Assembly: GCF_016097555.1 (NCBI RefSeq)
Contig: NC_054702.1
Location: forward strand, 81,936,124-82,000,123
From: Gigantopelta aegis
Taxonomy: Eukaryota > Mollusca > Gastropoda > Neomphalida > Peltospiridae
DNA length: 64,000 nt
Direction: 5' to 3'
Below, piece by piece: positions 18,001-63,041 of this stretch; positions within the stretch are counted from its first letter, which is position 1, and each line of letters begins with the position of its first letter. A model generated the notes under the pieces. That model saw only the letters and a program-made list of their open reading frames with translations. It made no database searches and was not told the origin of the DNA. A program made the position numbers and the translations under genes.

Positions 18001-21000
18001 ATCAAGTGTCCATTTGGCTAGCTGTAGAAGACATATATATATATATATATATAGCTTTATCTCATTCTTTATTCTTCCCAACCACACTGAAGTTATTTTA
18101 GGCTATCTGCAGTGCTATTGTTGAGACAAAAATATGAATAATGCTGACACTAATTTTTATTTTAATACATAATCTCTAATTATTAAATGATTGAATGAAT
18201 AAAAAAAATTAATGGAAAATCATACATGTATGCAAGTCAAAGAACAAACATGGGAAAAGAAATTGAAATTGCAGCAAAAAAAACATAATTCCGTCTTTAT
18301 ACTGGTATTTAAAAAAAACACCCCAAAAACCACTGAATTACTAGTATATCACATATATAAAACAACTTTTGTCATATTCACCTTAAAGTGTCCAGGAAAA
18401 AGTTCTTTTGCCAGCATAAAGAACGGTTCTGGATTTTCCTGTAATATACAAACAGAAATGAAATATATATATGTATTTTTAAAAGAATCTGTTATTTTCA
18501 AGATAAAAAGATGTTTATTTTGGAATCATTATCAAAATTGTGCCCATTATCTTATGCAGCAGACACCAATTCAAAGGTATAGACATATCACACCAATGTT
18601 ATGAAAACACAATTTTTGACACTGTATGTAGTGTATGGATACCATCTGTAAGACTGTTATACCTTCAGATATGGTGTCACATCTATGCTGGGATGGAATA
18701 TGGAAGAATAGAAAAACATGTTTCTATAAAGGGAAATAATTCAGCTTAATGAAGTTATTTAATTGAAAAAACTTATCACTTTGAGTTAAGACATATTTTT
18801 GGCACAGGCCCATAGTAGGGAGGGGGGGGGGGGGGGGGGGGTGGCCAGGGGGGACTGGGCCCTCCCAATAATTTTAGTGTTTTTTTTTTTTTTTTTATAA
18901 CCATTACATCTCGAATGAATGTAAAAGTTGTAGTGAGACTAACGGATCGAGATTAACGGCGAGAGTTACAGTAACAGGCAAATAACCTTTGAATCAGGTC
19001 TCCGGACCCCTAAATACCTTGTGCCTTTGGCACTTGTTCAATTGGGCCCCCCTAATAATGTCCACCATGCTACGTGCCTGTGGCATAAAAGATAAATCAT
19101 TTACGAATGACTGACATACCTTAAAGTAATCTATCGCAAATATAGCTTGTGGATCAGGCAGATTGTATTTCTGTAGGTTGTGATATAAACCACTTTCTGG
19201 GCTACGGAAATCTGGGATGCCAGCAGCTACAAATATTTTTTTTTAAACTTAAAAATCAAAAAGTTAAGTTAAAACAAGTAGTAAGCAAAAAAAAACAACA
19301 CATACATGTATAATATGAATTTTCAGTTATTAGCAAATGATGGAATTACCATAACACAATAAGACATTTAACGGTATTAATATGTAAACTAAATGCTTTC
19401 TGGCAACTCTTAAGTATCAGCATGTAAAAATGTAAGAAGAAAACCATTAAAAGGTATAAGCAATAGTAATTCCCTATCCCTAGTTATGATTATTTTCAGC
19501 AGCCCTTGCAGTTTGCTTCATCAATATTTTGCTGTCTGAAAAATGTCAACCTACATTGTGAAATTTTAAACACATATTATCTATCAATTTAACTGTTCCT
19601 CCAAACCGATCCTTGACATAATCTCATAGTATAGTGTACAGAAATACAAAATCACATGAACACAGTCATTTGTGGTTTTAACTAGTAACTGGTAATAAAT
19701 ATATCTTATTTTGCCTGGTTTCTGCAACTAACAGTGCTTTTTCTTCACATTTTAACATATACAGTCAAATGTTATCTTGATGCTGAACCAAACGGTGAGA
19801 ACTAACAGTTGTTAAGAAATAAAACTAACAGTTGTTAAGAGATAAAACTAACAGTTGTTAAAGATCAAAGTAACAGTTGTTGGTGAAAAGTGTGCCATGG
19901 GCCCATTTCTCAACCATGAGATACCCGTGGCTGATGAGACAATGTTTGACTGTATTTCTTGCTTTTCTAAATGACCATCAGGTTTCACCTCATGTTGATT
20001 ACATGCAATCTTTTTAAAATTAGCTCCACTATTACATGTGGATCTAACAGCAGCCAGTTGGAGCTCATGTCCACCAATCAAAACCTTACTTGCAGAATCA
20101 TGCCAGTAATTTAAAAATAATTTGAAAACATTCCGAATTATCCTGAGGGTATACGACGTTTCGTGTGAATTACGAATGCCGTATTTAGACCAGTAGAACT
20201 AATTTTAATCAGATTGCTAACAACACTGCGTAGACTCCAATGTCCAGGTAACATTTCGTCTGTAAATAATAATTTAAATATTGACCAATCACACTTCACC
20301 TTTTAGAACGTTATTTGGGAGTATACAAATTCTAAAAATATCAGGCGAGTCTATTTTAGTGGCCGCAGTACAACGAACCATACCAATACGTACGGGATGG
20401 GTTATCAGTCTTCAATTTTACATTACAAATTATTTATTTATTTAACAAAAATTATAATAATAAATCAGTCTTCAGTTTTACATTACAAATTATTTATTTT
20501 ATAAAATAAAACATGTTTTAAAGCATTCGTAATTCACGCGAAACATGTCGTATACCCTCAAAATAATTCGGAATGTTTTCAAATTATTTTTAAATTACTG
20601 GCATGATTCTGCAAGGTTTTGATTGATGGACATGAGCTCCAACTGGCTGCTGTTAGATCCACATGTAATAGTGGAGCTAATTTTAGCTAGATTGGATTAC
20701 ATGTACCTGACATACCATTAGGATCACATGATTTGTTGTTTTAAACAAGAACCGTGTAAACAAAGTACTGTAAATCTGGAAGATAATGCATTGTAATAAT
20801 ATTACATTGGGACAGGTAATCACTGTTTCTTGTTCATTACAGGATTACATTTTAATGACAGGTAATCACTGTTTCTTGTTCATTACAGGATTACATTTTA
20901 ATGACAGGTAATCACTGTTTCTTGTTCATTACAGGATTACATTTTAATGACTTAAAACGGTACTTTCATGCTAACAGATGCACACATATGTTGGGTTGTT

Positions 21001-24000
21001 TTTTTTTCTTTCTTTTTTTTATAAATTCATTGTATTGACATATGTCAAGAAATTATTGTGTCAATACATCCATCAGATGCATTAATATCTTGCTCGCATT
21101 AATTTCATGATTAACAGTATATACAGCGAGCTATAAAATGTTAAACTGAACACAGATTAATAAAGTAACAGGTGAGTATTCAATTCATGCAGTCACAAGT
21201 TTAGAAGAACAATGTGTCACATCTGAAAAATAATGTGAGGTTAATTAAGTGCAATGCTGAACACAACAAATGTAATTAATTAACCCAAAAGCACAGCATT
21301 CATAATGTGTATTGCAAGTCTATACCAACAAGTCAGAATATATCAGAATATGTCTTTACAGAAGAAACCTAATTTGTTCTAGAGCCAAAATCATATGGCA
21401 ACCTGAATGACAAAATAATTAAATTATAACCAACAGTGTGAAGTAACTGTAAAAATAAAACTTGATGCAATGCTTAGAATGAATATTTGACACCCTATAA
21501 CAAACAAAAGTACCGGTCATAAACAAAGATTTTTGTTTTAATTTAGGCAATATAAAGTCTGTATTATTAAAAGTGTTGACATTAATTGTCACCATATATG
21601 AATCCTTGATGCTGCACAGTCAAGTAATCTTCATACTATTGTTTGGTAATTTACTCCTTTACTCTTTGTTTGGTAAATGGATCTCCTGATAAAAATCTAT
21701 TTCTAATTTTTTTTAAAGTATATATTTGACAATGAATTTATTCATTTTTGTTTATTTCTTTTTAAAAATAATTAATATAAATTAAAAAATTTAATACTTT
21801 TTTCTGAAAATCAGTTTGGCAGCCAGACATTCACCGAGTACTGACTTGTATCCAAATTAATATGGCAAGAATGTGTTCAAACATTCTAGCCATTCTGCTG
21901 AATCATTGCTTGTGGGTGCCGCTTACTGTTCATCTGTTCCACTTATTTCAAACGATAATTATAATTAAATATTACTAATTTAGCAGCTAACACCACTGTT
22001 TTCCATTTCACTGTTAGGATTAATCCATGTCGGTGGACCCATTGGGCTATTTCTCGCTCTAGCCAGTGCACTACAACTGGTATACCAAAGACAGTGGTAT
22101 GTGCTATCCTGTTTGTGGAATGGTGCATATAAAAGATGATTTAAAGATGCCTTGCTAATAATAGAAAAATATTGTGTCAAAAATTACCAAATACTTGACA
22201 TCTAATAGCCGATGATTAATAAATCAATGTGTTCTAGTGATGTCGTTAAACAAAACAAACTTTTTCAATTTTACTGATATATATCAGTGGTTTTATAGTC
22301 AGGAATTGTGTTTTATTGATGAGGACAGTCAGGGCTCACCCAGTGCCCACAGCCAGTTTAGCCAACTGCTAATTGTTATATGAAGCAACTACAACATTTA
22401 GGAGCTGGTAAATAAAAATGGTGTTTAAATTAGCCACATTTTAATAATTTTTAAATAAATACTAAAACAAATACATGTATCTAAAAACTGGCTAAAACTA
22501 AATTCTGTCCAGTGTGATCCCTGGATAGTAGGACCAATAAAATAAAAATAAAAAAAGGAAGAGAGAAAAAAAAAAAAAAAGGCAGAGGATTATTAAGTTT
22601 TTTCTTCTACCATTTACAACTGTTGAGACATATTCAGATAGTCCGACTGTATTTGACTTTGTGACACACAAGAGAAAACCTCACATGTTGAGATTCCTGC
22701 CCCGGCTATAGTCACCACATTGTTACACTTATCACTCAAAATATACTTTGCCACTCCTTCTATTGTGACCTCTGGCAATAACTTTTCTGGAGGGGTGGCA
22801 GAAATATGAAGAGCACTGACCATAAAGTTTTGAAGCCAGCTAGTCTCTGAAAATATATGCATTGTCATCACATATTCACATGGTTACAAAAGAACAATTC
22901 ATAATACATGGACGTTTTCAACACACAGCATGGATTATATTTGCCGACCTCATTTCTGGAAAAGAAACAGACGTTTTCATATGGTCTAGTCTAATTTGGC
23001 ACATGGATATAGTCCAGAAGTTAAAACTTTAAAAGACACAAAATTTCATTTATAGACTTTCTGAATGAGAACGTTTTTGATATATAGTTACTGAACTTTT
23101 TTTTTTTTTAATATTTAAGGTTTTAAAGTGCATTAATTCTTTACTCCATACTGCATACCTGAAAGCTGTTTACTTTTTATACCTTATAAGACATCATTAA
23201 TAGCTGACCTCTTTAATTCTTTATTGGATATACATGTATATGATTATTTATGATTAAAAAAAAAAAAATTCTACATAAATACATGTATTATGCAAAACAT
23301 GAGGAAAAAGAATTTTTAATCCTGCAGTAAAAATATGATTCCTGTAGATTTCTTGGTGTAAAATTCATATTATATTGAACAAAAAAAATTAAACAAATAA
23401 TAAATAATAATTAACTTTTTATATTGCTATGTACATGTATCCAAAGGTGCAACCATGACTGAGGTTCTCTTTATCTAATAGTGCATGAGAAAGGGAACAA
23501 AATATGACTACTAATTTTTATTTGGGAAAGTAAATTATAATATAAAATTGGTAACTAATATAGTCCAACTCACGTTTCATTGATCTAGGACATACAATTC
23601 GTGAGAATAAATGCTAGATACAAAATCCAAATGTAATATTCAGTGCAAAAGATGATACTATTAACACTGACAAAATCAACAACGTAGCCTAAATTTTCAA
23701 ATCCACAAATTTAGCTTAAAGGTTTAAAGCCTGAAATGTATCCTAAAACGGGGGAAAAAAAGAAAATGAAAAAAGTGACATAGGAAAACAGACATCACAG
23801 ATGATATTATGAACATCCTTATGTTGTTAAATTAACATATTATTGAAAAGTGTTAATCGCTGGACAATTCCATGTACCATGAGACCATGTACAACAGGAT
23901 AAAACTATGTCAGACACAACAGAGTTGTTGAAACTCACATGTGGATATGCCTGCTCCTGCCATGGTAATAATATTTTTACACTTGTCACTCAGAATATAT

Positions 24001-27000
24001 TTAGCCACACCCTCAAAGGTGACTTCTGGTAACAACTGTTGTGGTTGTTCAGATATTTTCAAGGTATCCTTCAGTTTTTGTTCTAGTGAGTCCACTGAAA
24101 TAATAAAAAACACAACAAAAACAAATTACTGAAGGAATATTATATTGAGAGTGAAATTTTAAGACTATCATCAGTTTGCAGGCTGGTTTAATAAGTTTGC
24201 ATGCTATTTTAATCATTGTTTTAAACAATATTTTTTACATCTTCTTATGGCAGTGGCATTGGTCAACAGACTTAAACCTATGACTTTTTCCTACAAATTT
24301 AAAACAGTTACATTCATATAAAGCAAGATGATATACACTTTGAAGGTAAAACTATTACTCACTTTCATTTTTGTGAAATGCAAATGTGATTGTACATCTG
24401 CATGCACCTAAACTGAATCCAAGGGGTGATAATTATTGAGTTCCACATTTGAACAAACAGCTCTTCCCCTCTGAGACAGATTAGTTGAGCTGTTATTTTT
24501 CCCCCATTGAGGATATTTAACAGTGTTTCATTTCCTCACAAATATAAGGACTAATTAAACAGAAATGCATCACTTGTGCAAGCAATAAATATATAGTTTT
24601 TGAATACATTAAAAAAAAAAGAGTTACTTAAATTGTTCAGATAAGTTTAAGTTTTTATGTATTTAAAGGCATAATGTCACGGATTTAAGGACTGCACTTC
24701 TCTAAAAATGGATAATAAATAAAAATTACATTAATTGTTGGAAACTAAATCTAGCTATCGCATCACCTTAACTGAACCATGATGGAGTGAAATCCATGCC
24801 AACCCTCTCAGCAATTTTAGTTTTTGAATTATGGACCACTGCCATAATTCAATTATTTTTACAAAATATCATTAATAAATGGAGTATGGTGGTTATGAAG
24901 ATGGTTGAATAAAGTGCATTTAGGGACAAATCGAATTATTTTTGTTCAGGTAATAATTTGTTAGACCATTAAATAGGTCAATGATCTGTGACAATATGCC
25001 TTTAATAGTACACTCAGGATCATGGAACAGTAAGGAAAGTAACTCTGTAGTGCTCAATTTTACTCAGTTATGGCCATCGTACTCAATTATGATTTGGGTT
25101 AAGTGAAAAAATTACTCACTGACATTACTAATGCTCAATTAACTTGATTAATCACATCACTAATGATAATAGTTAGATAATTATTCCGTTTTACTTGCTA
25201 AATATGCAATATATAAAAAGTATCACACATATTTACTTGGTACAATTTTATTCTCATGTTTTTTTTATCTAAATGACAAAATGCTATATATAACACATGT
25301 ACAGTTTAGTATAGACTAGATGCTGCTAAAAGGAATGGAAGGAAGGAATCAACATCATAATCCAATGAAACAAGTTCAGAATTTATCAAAAAGAGACCAG
25401 AACTATAAGTTCTACGGAATGATGCAAATCAAATATTCCATAAATTATCTTTACCTTTCTTATCGCCATCACCCGTTTTGCTCCCTGATGCATCAGACAA
25501 CTGCTATATAAAAAATAAATATATAATGTTCACTGTATAAATAATCTACAAATACATAAAAGATATGACATGATAGATAAATGAACAAAAGTATACACTG
25601 CACAGGTTTGGGGTTAATGGTATCAGATATACTACTCAAAAGAATTTAAGGGTCAGACGATATTTTCGACATTATTTTCTGAATGTCAATTATATTAGCT
25701 AGACCATAATGTCACGCATGGTATTGTTCCATTTTGACGAAAGTGGGTCTAAGCAACCCATAAATGAATTAAAATCCACTGTCATTGACACTGTCGACTA
25801 GTTCTAATGGTGAAAACATGCTTACATTTGCACGTAAATTAGGGCGAAAGCGAAAAGTCTGCTAAGTGCCCATAATTTGCTTTTTCACAAAGCGCTTCAT
25901 TTGCACGCTTTGCACGTGTATTCCATGCTCTCAATGCTGAATTTCCGTATAATTGGAGCTTGCGTTCGTGTACGGTGCACACTCCAAATTCGACAATGGT
26001 ACGACTTCAACTGACTATCGAAGATCGAGGAAGGGCTATTGCTTGGCTTCAGGATGGCAATACGCAAAGAAATGTTGCTCTGAGACTTGGTGTCAGTCAG
26101 AGTGTCGTTGGCCGACTGTGGCAACGGTACCAAGCAACAAATTCTGTTCGAAATCGTCCACGTTCGGGAAGACCCCGAAGCACTACAAATAGATAGGACT
26201 GCTACATCACCAATATGGCTCTACGTCAACGCACAACCACTGCACGCTGATTACGTGACAATCTGCGGACTGCGACTGGAACTCGAGTGTCTGATCAAAC
26301 CATACGCAATCGTCTGAGAGCCAATAATCTACGCTGCCGTCGCCAGGCTGTTCGACCACCATTCCTACCACATCACAGAACGGCCAGACGTCACTGGTGC
26401 ACGCTTCATCTGCGGTGGCAACGTGTTCAGTGGGGTCGAGTCATGTTCACTGATGAGTCCAGGTTTAGTCTCCAGTTCAACGACGATCGGGTTCGTGTCT
26501 ACAGACGTCCTGGGGAGCGCTTCGCTGACGTTAACGTTAGACAACGTCACCGGTTTGGTGGTGGCAGCGTCATGGTGTGGGGCGGCATCTCTATCCACCA
26601 CAGGACCCCTCTCTATGTGGTGGATGGCAATCTGAATGGAATCCGCTATCTGAATGAGATTATCCGGCCGTTGGTTCTCCCAGGCCTTCAGCAGATTTGC
26701 GGCAGGACAGTTCTGCAGGATGACAATGCCAGACCCCACCACGCCAGGGTGGTAACAGACTTTCTCAGACAACAAGGTATCGCCAGGATGGATTGGCCAG
26801 CATATTCGCCTGACTTGGCCCCAATAGAGAATGCCTTGGACGAATTAGGCAGGAGAGTTCGGGATAACCATGCCCCTCCAGCCAACCTTCATGATCTGGG
26901 TCAACTTCTTATGGCAGAGTGGCAGGCCATTCCCCAAGAGTTCTTCAGACGTCTGATCAACAGCATGCGGCAACGATGTGTTGAGTGTATTCGCGCCAGG

Positions 27001-27677
27001 GGTGGATTCACACACTATTAAACGAATGTTCTAATGTGTAAAATCCATGTTTGACAACCTTCAACTTTGACAGCATGTCATGTGACTTTCTTGTATACAG
27101 TGACGTTTATTTGTGGTTTTTTGTAAATATGGAACAATAAATAAAAAAATTGCTGTAGTTTACATCATCAATCTAATACACTCTGAAACTTATTTGGTTA
27201 TAAATTTTTGACCCTTAAATTCTTTTGAGTAGTATATTTTAATAACACCTGTACTGAACTAATGGATGGATGGATGGATGGACAGAAGGATGAATAGATG
27301 GATAAACAAATGTATGGAAAGCAAAAACTATAACAAATGAGACAGTGCTAGACTATAAGTATGCAAAAAACTTAAGTCTTTTATTAACTGGGAAATCTGA
27401 AAATCTGGTCATATTTCTGTGAGGACAGAGAATCATTCCCACTACTTTATCATTTATGTCATGTATTCATAGTTAAATGTAACCTTGACTAACATTACAA
27501 CCCAACATACATACATGTATGTTTTAAGCTTAGTCTAACAAGTCTAGTAGGATTATGGCAATGCATACAGAATAATAACTCTTTAAGTTGTAACTATGCT
27601 ACATGTAGTTACATAACATATATATATATTGTTCAAGGTATTCTTACTTCTTTGGAATCTTGTGCTCCATCAGCCAT
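6045..27677 (-). CDS. SIRT2: SIRT2-type NAD-dependent protein deacetylase (class I sirtuin), 14 coding exon positions
   Basis: Sirtuins of this class remove acetyl groups from lysines (tubulin, histones and others), consuming NAD and releasing nicotinamide and O-acetyl-ADP-ribose. Exons read on the minus strand: 27648-27677, 25455-25503, 23939-24094 or 22685-22846 (alternatives), 19120-19226, 18382-18438, 17774-17842, 16142-16265, 14985-15050, 13944-13999, 13483-13559, 11802-11856, 10026-10093, 8171-8237, 6045-6179 (stop TAA). All junctions are GT/AG and phases agree. The product is 371 aa with the first alternative exon (373 with the second), against 389 in human SIRT2. Visible motifs (371-aa numbering): GAGIST 73-78 followed by [14 protein letters not shown] with N157/D159; catalytic H176 in EAHG; zinc cysteines C184, C187, C208, C213; VMGTSL near 248-253; YRDV near the C-terminus; then a lysine-rich tail. 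The start is the first ATG (ACC ATG context) on a 30-nt exon. The acceptor of exon 2 is a TAGCAG tandem acceptor, so one Gln may vary. Sirtuin identity is certain; SIRT2 rather than SIRT1/3 is supported by the N-terminal [14 protein letters not shown] block and by the length. Confidence 0.95.
7641..7786. repeat. Near-perfect hairpin (arms about 66 bp, loop about 13 bp)
   Basis: GGGATAATATCACTGTGTTT through TTTAGGGAC is followed after a short loop by its complement with few mismatches. Probably a foldback MITE; the transcript of this SIRT2 intron would form a long stem. Confidence 0.8.
8416..8806. mobile_element. MITE whose core is an 88-bp tandem repeat (four copies)
   Basis: The outer ends GCTTATAAAGCTTTAGTCTA and complement flank four nearly identical 88-bp units (8431, 8519, 8607, 8695). 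Each unit begins with a GTCTAGACTMAAATAAC motif, so the TCTAGA word of the inverted end is part of every unit. The layout resembles tandem-core MITE-like elements known from bivalves. In SIRT2 intron 12. Confidence 0.75.
9133..9515 (-). mobile_element. SINE of a second tRNA-derived family, full length
   Basis: The head, read on the minus strand, is GCCTCGGTGGCGTCGTGGTT with box B-like GGTTCGGATCC. The body shares AGCAGCAAGGGATCTTTTAT with the main family but the tail differs (CAACACATTTTATTATGG). A close copy lies at 41037-41402. Confidence 0.82.
9652..9955 (-). mobile_element. SINE, full length, ending beside SIRT2 exon 12
   Basis: Complete from the TTTTGTTTAACAGCACCACT tail to the tRNA-like head (box B GGGATCGATCCC). 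The head end lies about 70 bp from exon 12 (10026-10093). Confidence 0.87.
10587..11427 (-). mobile_element. Internally deleted Tc1-like transposon in a SIRT2 intron
   Basis: Perfect 27-bp terminal inverted repeats starting TACTCAAAGGCAAAAGTT, flanked by TA at 10585-10586 and 11428-11429. The 841-bp interior holds only remains of the transposase N-terminal helix-turn-helix region on the minus strand (about 11110 down to 10860); the catalytic domain is absent. It is a non-autonomous derivative of a different Tc1-like family from the 25630 element. Confidence 0.85.
13072..13345 (+). mobile_element. SINE of a third tRNA-derived family
   Basis: The head is GGCCTTGGTGGTGTAGCAGT with a GGTAGGTACTGAGTTTGCAT anticodon/box B region. 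The body contains CCACTACACTGGACTTCTCT and the tail is rich in AAACAAAC. Confidence 0.75.
13760..13875. repeat. Dispersed repeat shared with 56205-56345
   Basis: GGCATGGTGGCAAACCAAGT and ATTTTAGGGACACAATGACA match the ALKBH6 intron copy. Possibly SINE-like. Confidence 0.55.
14524..14660. repeat. Hairpin / foldback MITE
   Basis: Arms of about 47 bp start ATAACCATACTGAGTTTTTA and return as the complement. The arm word GGTGTTATTGTCTATTTGAT also occurs in the neighbouring repeat at 14780-14905. Confidence 0.7.
14780..14905 (-). repeat. Dispersed repeat shared with 3184-3290 (inverse orientation)
   Basis: Contains ACGTCATTAGCTTTCCGGGT and AACCAATCACAATACAG. The complement is found at 3184-3290 with few changes, so both belong to one repeat family of unknown type. 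Confidence 0.65.
16425..17584. mobile_element. hAT-like non-autonomous transposon in a SIRT2 intron
   Basis: The ends are CAGAGTTCGACAAAT and the complement of CAGAGTATGACAAAT, flanked by CATTATG (16418-16424, 17585-17591). Both ends also contain short CACTAGCC/GGCTAGTG inverted words. The 1,160-bp interior encodes nothing recognisable. Related CACTAGCC words recur at about 12055-12120. Confidence 0.78.
18803..19082. mobile_element. Small hAT-like MITE next to SIRT2 exon 4
   Basis: The ends CACAGGCCCATAGTAGG and the complement of CACAGGCACGTAGCATGG are imperfect inverted repeats. The interior has a long G run (about 18821-18841), a T run and GGGCCC blocks. Its right end lies only 37 bp beyond the exon 4 splice donor at 19119. 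Target duplication not resolved. Confidence 0.55.
19997..20704. mobile_element. Large foldback element (arms about 185 bp), SIRT2 intron 3
   Basis: The left arm 19997-20184 and right arm 20521-20704 are complements with few mismatches, including GTATACGAC and the block GGAGCTCATGTCCA. The roughly 335-bp centre holds a 40-bp direct repeat starting CAGTCTTCA. No target duplication resolved. Confidence 0.75.
20811..20956. repeat. 46-bp minisatellite, 3 copies, SIRT2 intron 3
   Basis: The unit starts GACAGGTAATCACTGTTTCT; the three copies are identical or nearly so. Confidence 0.9.
22015..22265 (+). mobile_element. SINE, 5'-truncated, SIRT2 intron 3
   Basis: The main-family body from GGACCCATTGGGCTATTTCT to the tail GTCGTTAAACAAAACAAAC. 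The head is missing. Confidence 0.82.
22685..22846 (-). CDS. SIRT2: SIRT2 alternative exon 3B (NAD-binding loop, 162 nt)
   Basis: This is a second copy of the same exon, 1,092 bp downstream of 3A. It opens after TTTTCAG and closes at ACA T|GTGAGG, with the same phases as 3A. It encodes [20 protein letters not shown], then [20 protein letters not shown] and [14 protein letters not shown]. The first 20 or so residues differ completely from 3A, while the catalytic-core half is nearly identical, with conservative changes. If 3A were spliced to 3B, the T ending 3A plus the AG opening 3B would make a TAG stop, so only one of the two can be used in a full-length protein. No stop, frameshift or damaged splice site is visible, so it does not look like a dead copy. 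Confidence 0.85.
23939..24094 (-). CDS. SIRT2: SIRT2 alternative exon 3A (NAD-binding loop, 156 nt)
   Basis: The exon opens after TTTCAG and closes at ACA T|GTGAGT. It begins in phase 1, completing the G left by exon 2, and ends with a single T that exon 4 completes to TCT (Ser). It encodes 52 residues: a variable N-terminal part ([20 protein letters not shown]), then [20 protein letters not shown] and [12 protein letters not shown], the first part of the Rossmann fold with the dinucleotide-binding loop. It lies upstream of exon 3B in transcription order. Confidence 0.9.
24667..25001. mobile_element. TTAA-flanked MITE, ends AGGCATAATGTCAC
   Basis: 335 bp with TTAA on both sides (24663-24666, 25002-25005) and imperfect inverted ends AGGCATAATGTCACGGAT / AGGCATATTGTCACAGAT. 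TTAA targets are used by piggyBac and Kolobok elements; no coding region. In SIRT2 intron 2. Confidence 0.7.
25630..27234 (+). mobile_element. Tc1-like (DD34E) DNA transposon, nearly complete, in SIRT2 intron 1
   Basis: Both ends carry the inverted repeat TACTACTCAAAAGAATTTAA, continuing to about 26 bp, and are flanked by TA duplications (25628-25629, 27235-27236). The 1.6-kb element contains one transposase frame. Close match of the ends and a mostly open frame suggest a fairly recent insertion. It lies opposite to SIRT2, between coding exons 1 and 2. Confidence 0.93.
25996..27021 (+). pseudogene. Tc1-like transposase with two in-frame stops
   Basis: A single frame of 341 codons from ATG 25996 to TAA 27021. 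The N-terminal helix-turn-helix reads [20 protein letters not shown], then the GRPR linker, then the catalytic domain: first Asp in [10 protein letters not shown], the [13 protein letters not shown] block, second Asp in QDDNARPH, and Glu in [10 protein letters not shown] with 34 residues between (DD34E). Two stop codons (26194-26196 TAG and 26248-26250 TGA) interrupt the linker without changing frame, so this copy should not make a whole enzyme. The catalytic triad itself is intact. Confidence 0.92.
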
Positions 27678-37188: not shown

Positions 37189-40100
37189 TCAGATCAAATC
37201 AGCAACTGAAAAAAAAAAAAATGCAAAACATGTTGTCATTTCAAACCAAATTATTCAGATGATGGATAGATAGATAAAATTGGAAAATTGGAAACTGCAA
37301 TACATATGTATGAGCAAATATTGCAGCTCATTTCTGAATCATAATATAACTATACAGTGATAATTGCAGTTTTTTAAAACCATTTTTGTCTATATTTAAA
37401 ATACTATCAGTCCTCATTACCACAAATATTGAATTTAATTTGTTTGAGAACTAAGTTTGAAACAAATTTACCAGTATTGTCAACATAGCATATTCATACA
37501 TAAATATTAGTTCTTAACCATAAAACATTTAAAACATGTCTTGGGTCAGTGAAATCTGATAAAAGGTATCAAACAACAATGTTATATAGCAATTGTGGCG
37601 TGAGCCTAATAAAGACTATTCATATTACCATTCATGGGCATTTCATCAATCTGTGTTGAGTAGTACTGTTCAATATCTCGCAGAATTCTGATGTCGTCAT
37701 TCTTCACAAAGTTGATAGCAACACCCTTTCGGCCAAAACGACCAGATCGACCAATTCTACAAATTAATTCATTAATACAATTTACAAGAATTGATGAAAC
37801 AACCAGCTAACATCCTATGTTTCAAAAGATTAAAACCCATTTATGTCATCAAAATATTTTCAAACTGAGATTTCGGAATACACCACTGATTTTTGTGTTT
37901 TTACCTGTTGCTATTTATTTGCAAGGATTTTCCAAATGTTTTAAAACCATTTATACCTTTTAATTCTTAACAAAACAATAAGCAAACATCTCTCTCCCCC
38001 ACCCAAAGAGAAATCACTATTTACTTTGGGTTATAATAAAGATGGAATCAATTATTTGTTTTCCATTGACATACCTGTGAATGTACAATTCTCTGTTGTT
38101 TGGCAAGTCATAGTTGATCACCAGTGAAACCTGCTGCACATCTATTCCTCTAGCCCAAACGTCTGTTGTGATCAATACACGGCTGGGAAAAAAAAAAAAA
38201 AAAAAAGCTTTTAAATACATTTTAAAAATTAATGAAAGTTAAGAGGTTTCATTATTAGTTGCATGTGTTATATGACCAGTGCTCGAGGTGAATCGGTGAA
38301 TCAATTTGTCTGAGTAAAAATGGACTCTTGATAGTCATGTGTACTGCACTGGTGGTGGGAGTTATTTTTTAAAATTAAGAATGATTACCAAATTTTGAAT
38401 TTTAAAGAAAATCTCACAAATTTATCAAAAATCCACTCCGGTCACTTTTGACCATGCTGTTCACTGTTTTGAAATGCAATAATGAAGAGGTTCTAAAACT
38501 AAATACTAAATTTTTATGTACATGGGAACTAATAAACAGAATGAATATAACTCACCGGGCCTCATAACGGAACTCTTTCATAATTCCATCTCTCTCTTTC
38601 TGTGGCATGAATGAAACAACTAACCTGGCCGCATAACGGAACTCTTTCATGATTCCATCTCTCTCTTTCTGTGGCATGATGATTCCACCTCTCTCTTTCT
38701 GTGGCACAACTAACCCGAATGGAACTCGCATAAATGAAACAACGGCCGAATAACGGAACTCTTTCATGATTCCATCTCTCTTTCTGTAGCATGAATGAAA
38801 CAACTAACCTGGCCGCATAACGGAACTCTTTCATGATTCCATCTCTCTCTTTCTGTGGCATGAATGAAACAACTAACCTGGCCGCATAACGGAACTCTTT
38901 CATGATTCCACCTCTCTCTTTCTGTGGCATGAATGAAACAACTAACCTGGCCGAATAACGGAACTCTTTCATGATTCCACCTCTCTCTTTCTGTGGCATG
39001 AATGAAACAACTAACCTGGCCGCATAACGGAACTCTTTCATGATTCCACCTCTCTCTTTCTGTGGCATGAATGAAACAACTAACCTGGCCGAACAACTAA
39101 CCTGGCCGCATAACGGAACTCTTTCATAATTCCATCTCTCTTTCTGTGGCATGAATGAAACAACTAACCTGGCCGCATAACGGAACTCTTTCATAATTCC
39201 ATCTCTCTCTTTCTGTGGCATGAATGAAACAACTAACCTGGCCGAATAACGGAACTCTTTCATGATTCCATCTCTCTCTTTCTGTGGCATGAATGAAACA
39301 GAATGAACTGACTAACCTGGCACCAGATCGGAACTCTTTCATAATTCCATCTCTCTCTTTCTGTGGCACGAATGAAACAGAATGAACTGACTAACCTGGC
39401 ACCAGATCGGAACTCTTTCATGATTCCATCTCTCTCTTTCTGTGGCATATCACCATGCATTGAGGACACTGTGAAGTTGGCTTCTCTCATCTTCTCCGTC
39501 AGCCAGTCAACCTAACAAAGAAAAACCAAACTCATCAGTTTATCTGCTGAAACAATACTGCTTCAAGCCATGCTTCACATACATTATAAAATTATATCAG
39601 AAAGAATAAGGGCAAAAGTATTCAATAACTAACTGAACTTTACATTTGGTGATTAGTGTGTGATGAGTACAAGACAATAACCACATGATTTATTCCCATC
39701 ACAGTATCTCCACAAATGATCAGCTGACATGGATCCATATTACATTATTGTTCATCACCTTTTTAAAAACATTTTGCTGAACATTTTTAATGTAAACACC
39801 TAAATTTATACAGTATACAACCAACCTTCCTCTTGGTGTTGCAGAAGATGACAGCTTGCGTGATTGTGAGTGTGTCGTAAAGGTCGCAGAGTGTGTCAAA
39901 CTTCCACTCCTCCCTCTCCACCGCCACAAAGAACTGTTTGATGCCCTCCAGTGTCAACTCATCACTGAAAGTAGATACAAACTAAAATAACACAAACATT
40001 CTAGCAATTTCCATCTTATCCTATAAAATAAAAATAACATTATTGTTATAAATTGTAAATTATGTAAAAAAGGTTTACAGACATATAACTTGACGTTTTC

Positions 40101-43100
40101 AACATTTTTTTAAGCATAAAGCTAGCTTAAAATATGTTGCTAGTTTGAATCTTAAAATGATTAATCATGCAAGCATTTTTAACCAACACCACATCCTAAA
40201 TAAATAAATAACAAATGAAATTTTCTTTGTCAATGCACCTTATGGTAATCTGACTGGGCTGTGTTCTTATTGAATACCTATATCAATGAAAATCCAGCCA
40301 TGCCTTCCCCTACACTCCTTCCCCGACTCGCACTACTTTACTGCAACTGGCAACCAAAAAAATTTATGCAAATCTTTTCAGGTGTCTTCTCATTCATTAA
40401 ACATAAAACTAAAAACACAAATCGTATCATTCCTTCCAATATAACCAAACAAGATTATACTAAAGTGTATTAATACAACTTTCTTCAGCTCTTCCACACT
40501 GACCGTTTGACCAATATTCTGATGGGATCTGTCATGAATTTGCTTGTCATCTCCAGAATTTCATGTGGCAATGTAGCAGATATTAAAAGGACTTGTGTGG
40601 CTGGAGGCAAATATCTGTAGACATCATAGATCTGTTCTTTGAATCCTGGTAACAAAAAACAAAAAAAATTCATTAAAGGGACAGACGTGAGTCTGTGACT
40701 TTGAAATGGTGAAATACCCTCTAAAAATAGACTAAAACTCGACTCCATAGCAGTTACTTCTCAGACGCACATGCGTTTTTAAAAATATGAGAAATACATT
40801 TTGTGATATTAAAAATACCAGGATGACCAAAATCACTTCGAATGTATGGAAATGGATAATCTAAACAATAAAATCTAAGTAAAGAATGATTTCAGTTATC
40901 AAAAACGGCTCTAACAGTAAAAAATATGCCTTAGTGTTTAAAAACTAGGGTATGTCCCTTTAAAAATTATGAACTGAAATAATTTCCCACATACAGTGAA
41001 ACCCCTCTAAACCAGACACCCGTGGGACCAAAAGAAAGAAATGTTTTATTTAACGACGCACTCAACACATTTTATTTACGGTTATATGGCGTCAGACATA
41101 TGGTTAAGGACCACACAGAGGAAACCCACTGTCGCCACTACATGGGCTACTCTTCCGATTAGCAGCAAGGGATCTTTTATTTGCACTTCCCACTGGCAGG
41201 ATAGCACAAATCATGGCCTTTGTTGAACCAGTTATGGATCACTGGTCGGTGCAAGTGATTACACCTACCCATTGAGCCTTGCGGAGCACTCACTCAGGGT
41301 TTGGAGTCGGTATCTGGATTAAAAATCCCATGCCTCAACTGGGATCTGAACCCAGTACCTACCAGCCTGTAGACCGATGGCCTACCATGATGCCGGTCCC
41401 CTTAGGACCAAGACAAATGTCCAGTTTTAAGAGGGATCTGGTTTACAGAGGTTATGTCCTGGTTTTTAAAAATGGACTGGGTAAAACGTCTGGTTTTGAA
41501 GGAATTCCGGTTTACAGAGGGTCCGGTCTTGAGAGGTTTCACTGTATTCTACACACATCAAGTCTATTTAGTTTCCACAAATCATTCAGTTCAAAAAACA
41601 AATTTTAGGACTTTTTTTATGCCTTTTACAAAAATTTGTTATCCTTTAATCTGACATCCAATAAAAAAATTACCTCGATGCTTTATGACGGTAACAAAGA
41701 TTCAATTAATATGAAATTTTAAACAATATCTTCTTAATCTTAAATACCTAATTTAATCAAGATGTTTCTATTTAAAAACGTATGCATTGTATAATCATTG
41801 TATAAAGATTTCCTGAATCATGTTGCAGAACTCCAGTAGTTATCTCTATCGTTTACCTTTGTTTAACATTTCATCTGCTTCATCCAGTATCAACATTTTA
41901 ATTGACCGTGTACGCAGGTTTCTTCGACGAATCATGTCTGCAAGAGAAAAAACAGATATTATATAAACACAATCTGGTATGAGTCATCTTATTTTGAGAT
42001 GTGCTAGGTATAAAAAAATAAATTATATAGATAAAGACAGCATTTACAGTAATATTACTTGTAACAATTACTTCTACATTTGCATAGCAAAACTGAAATA
42101 AACACTTCGACTCATGAATTCTTATCCCAACCCGTGCACAATAACTGGTATATCATTAAATGTGCTGTTCTGTCTGAGGGGAGTGCATAATAAATAAAAA
42201 ATGTGTCCTACTAGTGAAAAATGTAGGTTTCAATTGAAGACTTTGTGTCAGAATTAAGAAATGTTTGACATCCAAAACCCAAAGACTCAATGTATTCTAG
42301 TGGTGTAATAAATCAAAAACAAATCTCAATTCATGAAAAGTTAAACAAATTTGATTGTTTCTTTTCATTTGTAATGTAAATTCACTCCAAATTCCATGAC
42401 TTTTCTGGTCTGGAATATACTTGTAAATTCCATGACCTGTAGGAGAACTGCAACATTTATAAATAATTAAAAACTTAACTATTTTAAGATCACTGTTAGC
42501 AGTTATCAATATACCGACTGATACGGTAAGTTCTGCTATTACATAATTAAATTTGCCTACCAAAAACTCTTCCTGGTGTTCCTGATACAACATGCTGTCC
42601 ATAGTCAAGCTTCCTCATGTCTTCTCCGATGTTAGTACCACCAATACAAGCATGACACTGAACATTCATGTAGTCACCCAGGGCAAGGATAACCTTAAAA
42701 TATTAAACATAACATTTATTCATGAATTACTGAGACTCTCACACAAAATTATCTGTAACTTGGGTTATGTGCTCTTGATTTAACCTCTTTACCTTTATTT
42801 TAAAAAAGAACATATAGCTATTAACATCAGGTCATGAGGTTTGTCAAACGTTCTTTCACGGTAATACAGCATGTACTAGAGAGCTCTGCTAGTTGGTTTA
42901 AAAGATATTTAGTCAAAGTCGGTCAAATAAGAAATAAGCTGTATTATGTCTGGCTGAATATTTAATAACATCTACTCCATACCTTCTGGATCTGAACAGC
43001 AAGCTCTCGAGTTGGAGAAAGGCACAAGGCTTGCGTCTCTCGAACCTGTGTATCCAAGCACTGCAGTATGCTGACAGAAAAGGTAGCAGTTTTACCAGTG

Positions 43101-46100: not shown

Positions 46101-49100
46101 TGCACTTAGTCCCGCTGTGGAGGCCATGTGGCGAGTAGTTACGTAATACCTCTGCGAGTGCGGGTTTTACAACTGCGATTTGGCGACGATGGCGTCAGTA
46201 GTCTGACGATCAGAGAGAATATACCGAGGTAGAATATGAGATGATACGTGAGGTGCCGCTTTGTTCTCCCCCAGGCCAATTCTGATTTTGGAATAAATAG
46301 CTAGAATTTAGAGAGATCTAGGAAAACGAATTAGGACGGCTCGAGGGGATCACGAACGTAGTCCGTTAGGACTTGGTAAATATCATTTCTGCTCTGTGTA
46401 TAACCTTGATGTGATTGATGTGACTTAAATATTTTAATACTGTATTATACCAATATTCTTTAGACAGTGTCTTCGGTCATCTGACGAAGTAAATCGTAGA
46501 CTTATTGTTCTAACATTATATGAGTATTTGGTAATGTAAAGCTTAGCCAGTCATCCTAGAAGACCCTGGGTACACTGTAGGTTATTGTCTTTATTGTGAT
46601 AAGTATTAATTCTGTGTTACAAGATTACTGAAAGAGTAGTTAGGGTTAATTAAAAATTAACCCGTTAGGAATAGAGCTGTAATTCCTTTATTAATTAAGT
46701 TCCCCAAGAATCGTTCTAAATTATCACACGTTACTGAACGAGTAGTAAGGGTTAATTATAAATTAACCAGTTAGGAATGGTGTTGTAATTCCTTTATTAA
46801 TTAACTTCTCCTGTAAGCGTTTCTCAATTATCACACGTGTGGGTGTGGTGTAACGGTGAAGTGATTCGCATATTGTGTAACTAGACACCCAGAGATTAAC
46901 TAATTAAGTGATCAGTTCTGGGTTGTTATTATTGTTGTTATTAATTTACTACTACGGCTGTACATTTGTCAGCGTAGATTAATACAGATTCCATAGTGTA
47001 TTGTGTTTTTGTTGTGTTTTCTAGAGAAATAACGTGCTATAATAATATATACTTATATAAGATCGTATCTCTGATCATACCTAGAGACGAGCCATACTAG
47101 GTTTAACAGCCTGTTACAGAGAGATCTAATAGATATACAGTTAGGAGAGAGATTTTGATAATCGTGTTTTATTCGGTTACGGGAATTATAGAATCCCCGT
47201 GACAGTGCCAAATTTTATGCCCTGCTTCTGCTGGTGCACATACGAGATGGCTCCCCACATCATGACACTCCCTCCACCGAATCTGTCAACTTGGGCGACA
47301 CAGTTCACTGCGGCATCTGTAAACACATTGTCATCCATCATGTCGCTGTAGAAGGAAACATGACTTGTCGCTGAACCATACTCGCCGCCAGTTTCCCAAG
47401 TTCCACCCCTGTACATTTGTGCACCAGCGAACACATAAATGTTGTTGACATCACAGGACGGGCCCAACATACAGTCTCCTAGGCCGTAAACCAGCTTCTC
47501 GAAGTCGGTCCCAAATGATTTGTGCAGACACCCTTCTCAAACCAGGTATGCGTCCAGCAGTGTTCGTTGTTGTGGCAGTTCAGTGACGCAAGTGCAGAAC
47601 CCTGATGTAGTGATCTTGTGCTGCAGTTGTGATGTGAGGTCTTCCACTTCTGGGCCGGTCTTCAGCTGATTGAAACTGCTGGTACCCAGAGACATAAAAT
47701 GGTGCTCTGATGGACGTTCTTGTGGCGTGCGACTGCTGACTGCGATTCACCTAACTGGAGGTGGCATATTACAATGTTTCGTTTCGGCAGGCTTAGTCTT
47801 GGCATCTTGTAACTTGTCTATATCGAAATGGAAATGAGGCATTATTGCGAGCATTGCAGCTTTAAATACCCATCACTACCCCAATCTTTTCCTAGAGTTT
47901 CACATGTATTCGCCAAAATCTGACCATTTCATGCCGATTTCCTGCAACTGTCGCACAACGTGCGTTAAGTTTATATTAGGGTGCATTTGGGCATGCTGTC
48001 CCATTCCAGGAGCATTAGCAAACATGGTCATTCAGCAACATTATAAAAAAAAACCTCTATATTTTGTAAAATCAAACACTTTTCTTCTTTCCCTATCACC
48101 TATGCGTTTCTTTTTTGACAGAGTACATCTGTAATAGTGAATTATTTAACTCGTTATTATTTTTATTTTATTTTTTGCTTGTGTTGAAAGTGAAAAAATC
48201 AATCTGCAAAGAAGATTTATTTAATAAAAGAAGAAAAAAGTGCAAAATAGTTTGCGTACATTGTAGTTCAGGAAATGATTTCGTCCCAATAAAAAATTAC
48301 GGAAATTAACGATGATGAATCATTTTAAATTAACATGATGGAAATTGGGCGCCACTTTATAATTTTTGAAGTTAACATGTTTACTTTTTTTTAAATTTTG
48401 ACAACTGGGACTGAACATACTTAAAAAGTTTATTCTCATGGCCGATTAATCACTGATTCACTGAGGTCAGTCCCTATTTTAGGATGTTATGTGGTCCCGG
48501 CAAGAAATATGCGTTCTGTGACTTTGTTTGCATGTATTGTGTGTATCTTGCAAACAAATATTAGATTATTTACACCTCCATGGAATATTTATTACATCCC
48601 TCATGGTAAGGTTAGAAAACATATATCATTACTGTTACTATTATCATTACAACATTATGAACATACGATATTTAATGTGAAAATATCAATATTGTAAGTG
48701 GAAAGTTACCCCACTTTATATTCATGAATAATTAATGACCATTCATGAATTTTAATCATTTAATGATGCTGGAACGGTTGGAAATCTTGCCATTTAGAAA
48801 AAATAACAATTATAATAAGACAAATTTAAAAGCCTTAAAAAGGGAGTGCGGTTGGACAATTTACCCTAATACTATCGGTATCAGGTCGTTTCGCCCTTAT
48901 TCCTGATTGCCCCATGTCGTTTCGCCCCCATACCGGGTCGTTTCGCCCTCTATACAGAGTCGTTTCGCCCTCATGTTTATGTTTGTGAATGATGAATAAA
49001 TTTGTTTACGTGACTCTAGTTGCAAATCGGATATAGATTATCAATTTGTAACCCTTTATCAACATAAACACCATTTATATGTATATGTTATTATGTGCAA

Positions 49101-50985: not shown

Positions 50986-63041
<12,056 letters not shown>

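Follow-up and report, generated by a model that had tools for sequence, protein, structure and literature searches.

The 64,000-nt stretch of the Gigantopelta aegis genome analysed here (the window; G+C 35.5%) carries on its minus strand, on contig C4, a gene for the sirtuin SIRT2, whose exons as placed run from 25500 down to 6045. A distinctive feature of this gene is that its third exon is represented twice, by neighbouring homologous exons of similar length termed 3A and 3B, each of which leads into the same downstream exons. The gene model is an in-silico splicing of our own that covers exons 2–14, and each isoform comprises 13 exons: exon 2, one of 3A and 3B, and exons 4–14. Every placed exon is preceded by AG, and GT follows every exon except the last. 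The coordinates are listed in Table 1.

Table 1. Features placed in and around the SIRT2 gene (positions within the window)
Feature	Position	Strand	Description
Exon 2	25455..25500	(-)	46 nt as placed; open frame, ends in phase 1, donor
Exon 3A	24094-23939	(-)	156 nt, 52 residues; TTTCAG acceptor, GTGAGT donor; human SIRT2 38-89, tblastn E 4e-10
Predicted nuclear export signal in 3A	24054..24086	(-)	Lies in register with human residues 41-51; 197/20000 shuffles show the spacing pattern
GAGIST codons of 3A (putative NAD-binding loop)	23940..23957	(-)	From translation
3B acceptor region	22847..22948	(-)	100-nt AG-free stretch, pyrimidine-poor tract
Two in-frame ATG codons upstream of 3B	22860..22868	(-)	Possible alternative start
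Exon 3B	22846-22685	(-)	162 nt, 54 residues; TTTCAG acceptor, GTGAGG donor; human SIRT2 36-89, tblastn E 2e-8
Predicted nuclear export signal in 3B	22803..22835	(-)	Lies in register with human residues 41-51; 449/20000 shuffles show the spacing pattern
GAGIST codons of 3B (putative NAD-binding loop)	22686..22703	(-)	From translation
Exon 4	19120..19226	(-)	107 nt; TTTGTAG acceptor, GTATGT donor; in phase with either exon 3 copy
Exon 5	18438-18382	(-)	AG before, GT after
Exon 6	17842-17774	(-)	AG before, GT after
Exon 7	16265-16142	(-)	AG before, GT after
Exon 8	15050-14985	(-)	AG before, GT after
Exon 9	13999-13944	(-)	AG before, GT after
Exon 10	13559-13483	(-)	AG before, GT after
Exon 11	11856-11802	(-)	AG before, GT after
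Exon 12	10093-10026	(-)	AG before, GT after
Exon 13	8237-8171	(-)	AG before, GT after
Exon 14	6179-6045	(-)	AG before; holds stop codon

The SIRT2 gene and its two exon 3 copies

Spliced in silico, exons 2–14 give an open frame ending at a common stop codon, encoding 360 residues with 3A and 362 residues with 3B; the TAGCAG acceptor of exon 2 leaves its first 3 nt ambiguous. The 3A protein scores 422.2 bits against human SIRT2, with SIRT3 second at 283.1 bits (query without the 15 residues of exon 2), while the 3B protein, queried with these 15 residues, scores 422.3 bits against human SIRT2. Additionally, the 25 top PDB sequences for the 3A protein, among the best 60 of 102, are SIRT2 throughout, and both forms cover the Pfam SIR2 profile (PF02146) from position 1 to 180 of 180. 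Judged by the best whole-protein match and the complete SIR2 domain, the gene is SIRT2, a class I sirtuin.

Each of the two copies is located separately by tblastn with human SIRT2, and both begin and end in phase 1. Both terminate in an identical GAGIST motif, which we take, from the sirtuin fold, to be the NAD-binding loop. The coordinates, lengths, phases, splice dinucleotides and reading frames proposed for the pair in the initial annotation are all borne out, as are its predictions about the junctions. Specifically, exon 2 joins 3A through the codon GTG and 3B through GAG, and either copy joins exon 4 through TCT, generating the sequence SAGIPDFRS. Joining 3A to 3B, by comparison, creates TAG at the junction codon, with 11 more exons (4–14) downstream of the stop, so that double inclusion is non-productive. 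Skipping both copies joins exon 2 to exon 4 through GCT, which keeps the frame and loses the GAGIST loop; in this form the match to the SIR2 profile begins at profile position 6.

Divergence and maintenance of the copies

The C-terminal parts of the two exons share a core of 32 codons, from LLPEVT to GAGIST, in which 27 residues are identical, a likeness not attributable to chance. At the codon level, 11 of the 32 are identical, 16 differ silently and 5 differ by replacement, all five replacements (F/I, K/N, I/V, I/V and M/I) being conservative, as had been proposed. The 24 base differences in this core comprise 4 at first positions, 0 at second positions and 20 at third positions. The non-synonymous divergence (dN) is 0.094 with saturated synonymous divergence (dS) by NG86, and dN is 0.124 with dS 1.61 by LWL85; at fourfold sites, 8 of 13 differ, corresponding to a Jukes-Cantor distance of 1.29 (95% limits 0.41 to unbounded). 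The replaced residues align with human L64, R77, V79, I80 and L82, positions that, by reference to the sirtuin fold, we place in a helix and in the strand before the NAD loop.

The consequence of releasing one copy from constraint was simulated from the 3A core in 3000 runs per branch length, counting runs with at most five changes and no stop codon. At 0.3, 0.57 and 1.13 substitutions per site, 0 of 3000 runs reach the observed state. Together with the substitution pattern, this indicates, within the one genome compared, that both copies of exon 3 have long been kept by purifying selection, over most of their history. Ungapped DNA similarity between the copies (repeat D1 of the direct-repeat search) continues for 8 nt after the exon ends, within the donor region, and no farther, which argues against a recent copy or an assembly duplicate. 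Assuming a neutral rate of 1–4 per 1e9 years per site, the duplication would have an age of the order of 160–650 million years, or 50–200 million years at the lower limit of the distance. Moreover, since the copies agree with each other at 27 of the 32 core residues and each with human SIRT2 at 18 of 32, the comparison suggests a duplication later than the divergence from the human lineage, barring gene conversion.

The N-terminal halves, described in the initial annotation as unrelated, instead appear to be diverged homologues. Residues 37–57 of human SIRT2 align with both, and 10 of 5000 shuffles score as well for the 3A half and 0 of 5000 for the 3B half. Each half also holds a predicted nuclear export signal, defined by a four-position spacing pattern and assessed against composition-keeping shuffles (Table 1). 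In both copies L, L and I occupy the places of human L41, L49 and L51, while the place of human L44 is taken by K in 3A and by F in 3B. The export segment thus seems to be kept in both forms and changed in character, that of 3A being charged and that of 3B aromatic and hydrophobic. Human residues 41–51 are reported to form a CRM1 export signal (PMC1949146), in which single alanine changes never stopped export; double changes, for example of L41 and L49, did, and the L44 and L51 double change did not.

These comparisons bear on the proposal that the isoforms differ in the N-terminal helix and at the edge of the cofactor pocket. The case for a changed pocket edge is weak, given an unchanged GAGIST and core replacements that are conservative in all five instances.

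Proposed choice between 3A and 3B

The acceptors of the two copies differ in quality. The pyrimidine fraction of the acceptor tract is 0.76 for 3A and 0.53 for 3B, with exon 9 also at 0.53, and the AG-free zone before 3B, at 100 nt, is the longest among the 14 acceptors placed, the other 13 having 18–74 nt. A strong-looking acceptor for 3B at 22957-22956 was set aside, since the stretch from there to 3B holds stops in the 3B frame. Distant branch points are reported to enforce exclusion in OGDH, where an AG-exclusion zone of about 280 nt is canonical (PMC7969005).

We regard it as probable that the locus holds a tandem-duplicated pair of SIRT2 exons, spliced so that a productive mRNA contains either 3A or 3B; on the evidence of the sequence, both exons are probably used, one at a time. 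Either choice would yield a SIRT2 complete from exon 2 on, and an mRNA including both exons would be discarded through nonsense-mediated decay. The choice itself could be set by competition between the 3A acceptor and the poorer 3B acceptor, possibly acting through a distant branch point, such that the balance of splicing factors at the 3B acceptor would determine the isoform ratio while the junction TAG would remove double inclusion. Any difference between the two forms would be expected in nuclear export or in N-terminal contacts and not in basic chemistry, given that the spacing of the export signal and the GAGIST loop are kept in both and the export segment has diverged. The exon pair may accordingly be viewed as tuning the export and N-terminal segment together with the strand before the NAD loop. 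A further-reaching proposal, which we hold tentatively and consider rather doubtful, is that the pair constitutes an old, lineage-wide switch of the nuclear-export segment and the strand preceding the NAD loop, providing two active deacetylases of different nuclear-cytoplasmic balance, plus a catalytically dead form produced by skipping both copies.

Several observations weigh against exclusive use of the two copies. The argument is drawn from the sequence of a single genome, and exon 4, with a fraction of 0.35, has a poorer pyrimidine tract than 3B. Given the base composition, a codon starting with T, as at the 3A–3B junction, is a stop by chance with a probability of about 0.22, so that the junction TAG alone is weak evidence for exclusion, suggestive at most. 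The N-terminal halves of 3A and 3B match each other weakly (117 of 5000 shuffles are as good). Moreover, the intron between the copies measures 1092 nt, and the donors (GTAAAG, GTGAGT and GTGAGG, with AG acceptors) look U2-type, judged against the U12 consensus; it is therefore likely that neither steric exclusion nor U2/U12 incompatibility enforces the choice. Pairing between introns does not exceed that of shuffles either, with 3, 5 and 6 of 11 shuffles as strong, in a coarse comparison of non-overlapping 50-nt tiles that covered, of the 3458-nt intron between 3B and exon 4, the initial 1385 nt.

The best surviving alternative, itself unlikely, assigns the copies to different promoters, with 3B serving mainly as the initial coding exon of a shorter transcript begun in the 3A–3B intron and 3A belonging to the long transcript. 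Two in-frame ATG codons, at 22868 and 22862, lie directly before 3B with no intervening stop, the 3B acceptor is pyrimidine-poor, and in human SIRT2 isoform 2 the N-terminus is 37 residues shorter and the export signal retained (PMC10794644). Yet 3B has an AG acceptor, the same phase as 3A and nearly the same place relative to the export segment, and a first exon needs no acceptor.

A slightly smaller chance attaches to the idea that one copy has lately fallen out of use and is now a well-preserved dead exon. The simulation makes recent loss of use possible, and this too counts against use of both copies: with a neutral branch length of 0.1 substitutions per site, 801 of 3000 runs fit the observation, and of the two acceptors that of 3B is the poorer. 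The fit nevertheless falls to 31 of 3000 runs at 0.2 and vanishes at 0.3 and above, and frames, splice dinucleotides and exact phases are intact in both copies. That 3A and 3B are two ordinary cassette exons, included together or singly without exclusion, is improbable; both lengths are multiples of three and the intron between them is long enough for normal splicing, but joining the two would cut the protein before most of the catalytic domain. An assembly artefact or a recent local duplication, such as two haplotypes placed in tandem, deserves almost no credence, with no supporting point found, 20 of 32 third positions differing and the direct-repeat search detecting no similarity of the surroundings beyond the 8 nt of the donor region.

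Copy number, surroundings and relation to known systems

In the 1.15-Gb assembly of 5216 contigs, exon 3A DNA and exon 3B DNA each match one place; this search is insensitive, the 3A query having failed to report 3B, so that diverged copies would escape it. Of 30 candidates scored in a search with the 3A protein, 23 match at E ≤0.01, and 12 of these fall on C4 inside the SIRT2 gene; both exon copies and no other close place are listed. The top match lies outside the gene, on C9, and reaches 56% over residues 43–138 in one long frame; considered as a second SIRT2 or a retrocopy, it is taken to be another sirtuin, a piece of it scoring 115.6 bits for SIRT3 against 111.1 for SIRT2, a small margin. 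A locus on C8 is likewise taken to be another sirtuin, a piece of it scoring 77.7 bits for SIRT1 against 52.7 for SIRT2, and weaker matches lie on C3, C14, C962 and C1785. In this search, which was not exhaustive, no second SIRT2 was found.

Within the window, tblastn with human SIRT2 and both isoforms finds exon 3 in two versions and every other exon once, with no further exon copies. Weak matches at 48344, 19902, 39963 and 59072 (E 0.65 to 5.7) were attributed to chance or to other genes; the sole other match touching this part of human SIRT2 covers 11 residues at 39963-39931 (E 5.7) and lies outside the gene. Pattern searches of viral and prokaryotic sequence collections returned 26 (viral_contigs) and 240 (genome_contigs) entries for 3B and 19 (viral_contigs) for 3A, none confirmed as a relative and uninformative on conservation. 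Rfam gives 0 matches over positions 19000–26000.

A Tc1/mariner-like transposase occupies 25876-27021 (+), opposite in strand to the gene and some 375 nt upstream of exon 2; its frame 26251-27018 matches DDE_3 and HTH_Tnp_Tc3_2 and adjoins the frame 25876-26196. Inverted-repeat arms at 19990-20710, of 98 nt (89%) and 69 nt (97%), lie in the intron between 3B and exon 4 and could belong to a foldback element or to one with terminal inverted repeats. The same intron has, at 20811-20951, a 46-nt repeat in about three perfect copies, with motifs resembling donor and acceptor sites on its plus strand. Farther away, 57908-60992 holds large minisatellites, one with a repeat unit of 49 nt over 57908-58885 and one with a unit of 68 nt in about 22 copies over 59531-60992. 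A frame at 40485-40760 (-) and the nearby match at 39963-39931 together span 39931-40760; the two pieces taken together resemble an eIF4A-type DEAD-box helicase, and the piece 40485-40760 (-) has no match in Pfam.

The initial annotation had held mutually exclusive SIRT2 exons of this kind to be undescribed, and in the open literature, with several result lists accessible in part, no report of them was found. The words 'SIRT' and 'sirtuin' have 0 occurrences in the main text of either PMC9741552 or PMC5740500, the latter a human survey, and the term 'mutually exclusive' has 0 in that of PMC7824890, which surveys the sirtuin isoforms of human and mouse. In three further papers, SIRT2 figures as an expression change (PMC8641155), a cassette event (PMC8116494) and a skipped-exon event (PMC10825154). 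Unpublished genome annotations may already show both forms. In the scallop Argopecten, the SIRT2 entries Air14083.2 and Air14083.3 are counted by the authors as tandem copies, and the available portion of that report gives no exon-level description of the locus (PMC12102419); from their shared number, the two entries could represent separate transcripts of a single gene.

If both forms are made, a sirtuin would join the enzymes tuned by homologous exon substitution, with the switch sitting on the very segment that sets the cellular place of work of human SIRT2, and the natural isoform pair could serve to separate the effects of the export signal from catalysis.

Homologous exon substitution is an established and mostly ancient class, for which 236 human tandem duplicated exon substitution events have been analysed, including OGDH exons 4a/4b (PMC9741552). 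The SIRT2 pair would add a case to this well-known class, sharing with events such as OGDH 4a/4b adjacent homologous exons of near-equal length and equal phase, conservative replacement of a segment and old divergence. It differs from them in the gene concerned, in being known from sequence, and in that exclusion would rest on a stop at the junction rather than on a frame shift or a steric block.

As in human SIRT2 isoforms 1, 2 and 5, alternative splicing of the Gigantopelta aegis gene would be directed at the N-terminal export-signal region. Human isoform 5, which drops residues 6–76 and is nuclear and inactive (PMC10794644), is comparable to skipping both copies here, and its junction at residue 76 falls inside the exon unit that corresponds to human residues 38–89. 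The human isoforms nevertheless remove the segment, and the available portion of the source describes no alternative version of this segment for them, whereas 3A and 3B would offer two versions. If the pair does act as a switch, outcomes comparable to those reached in human SIRT2 through other isoforms would be reached here through exon duplication.

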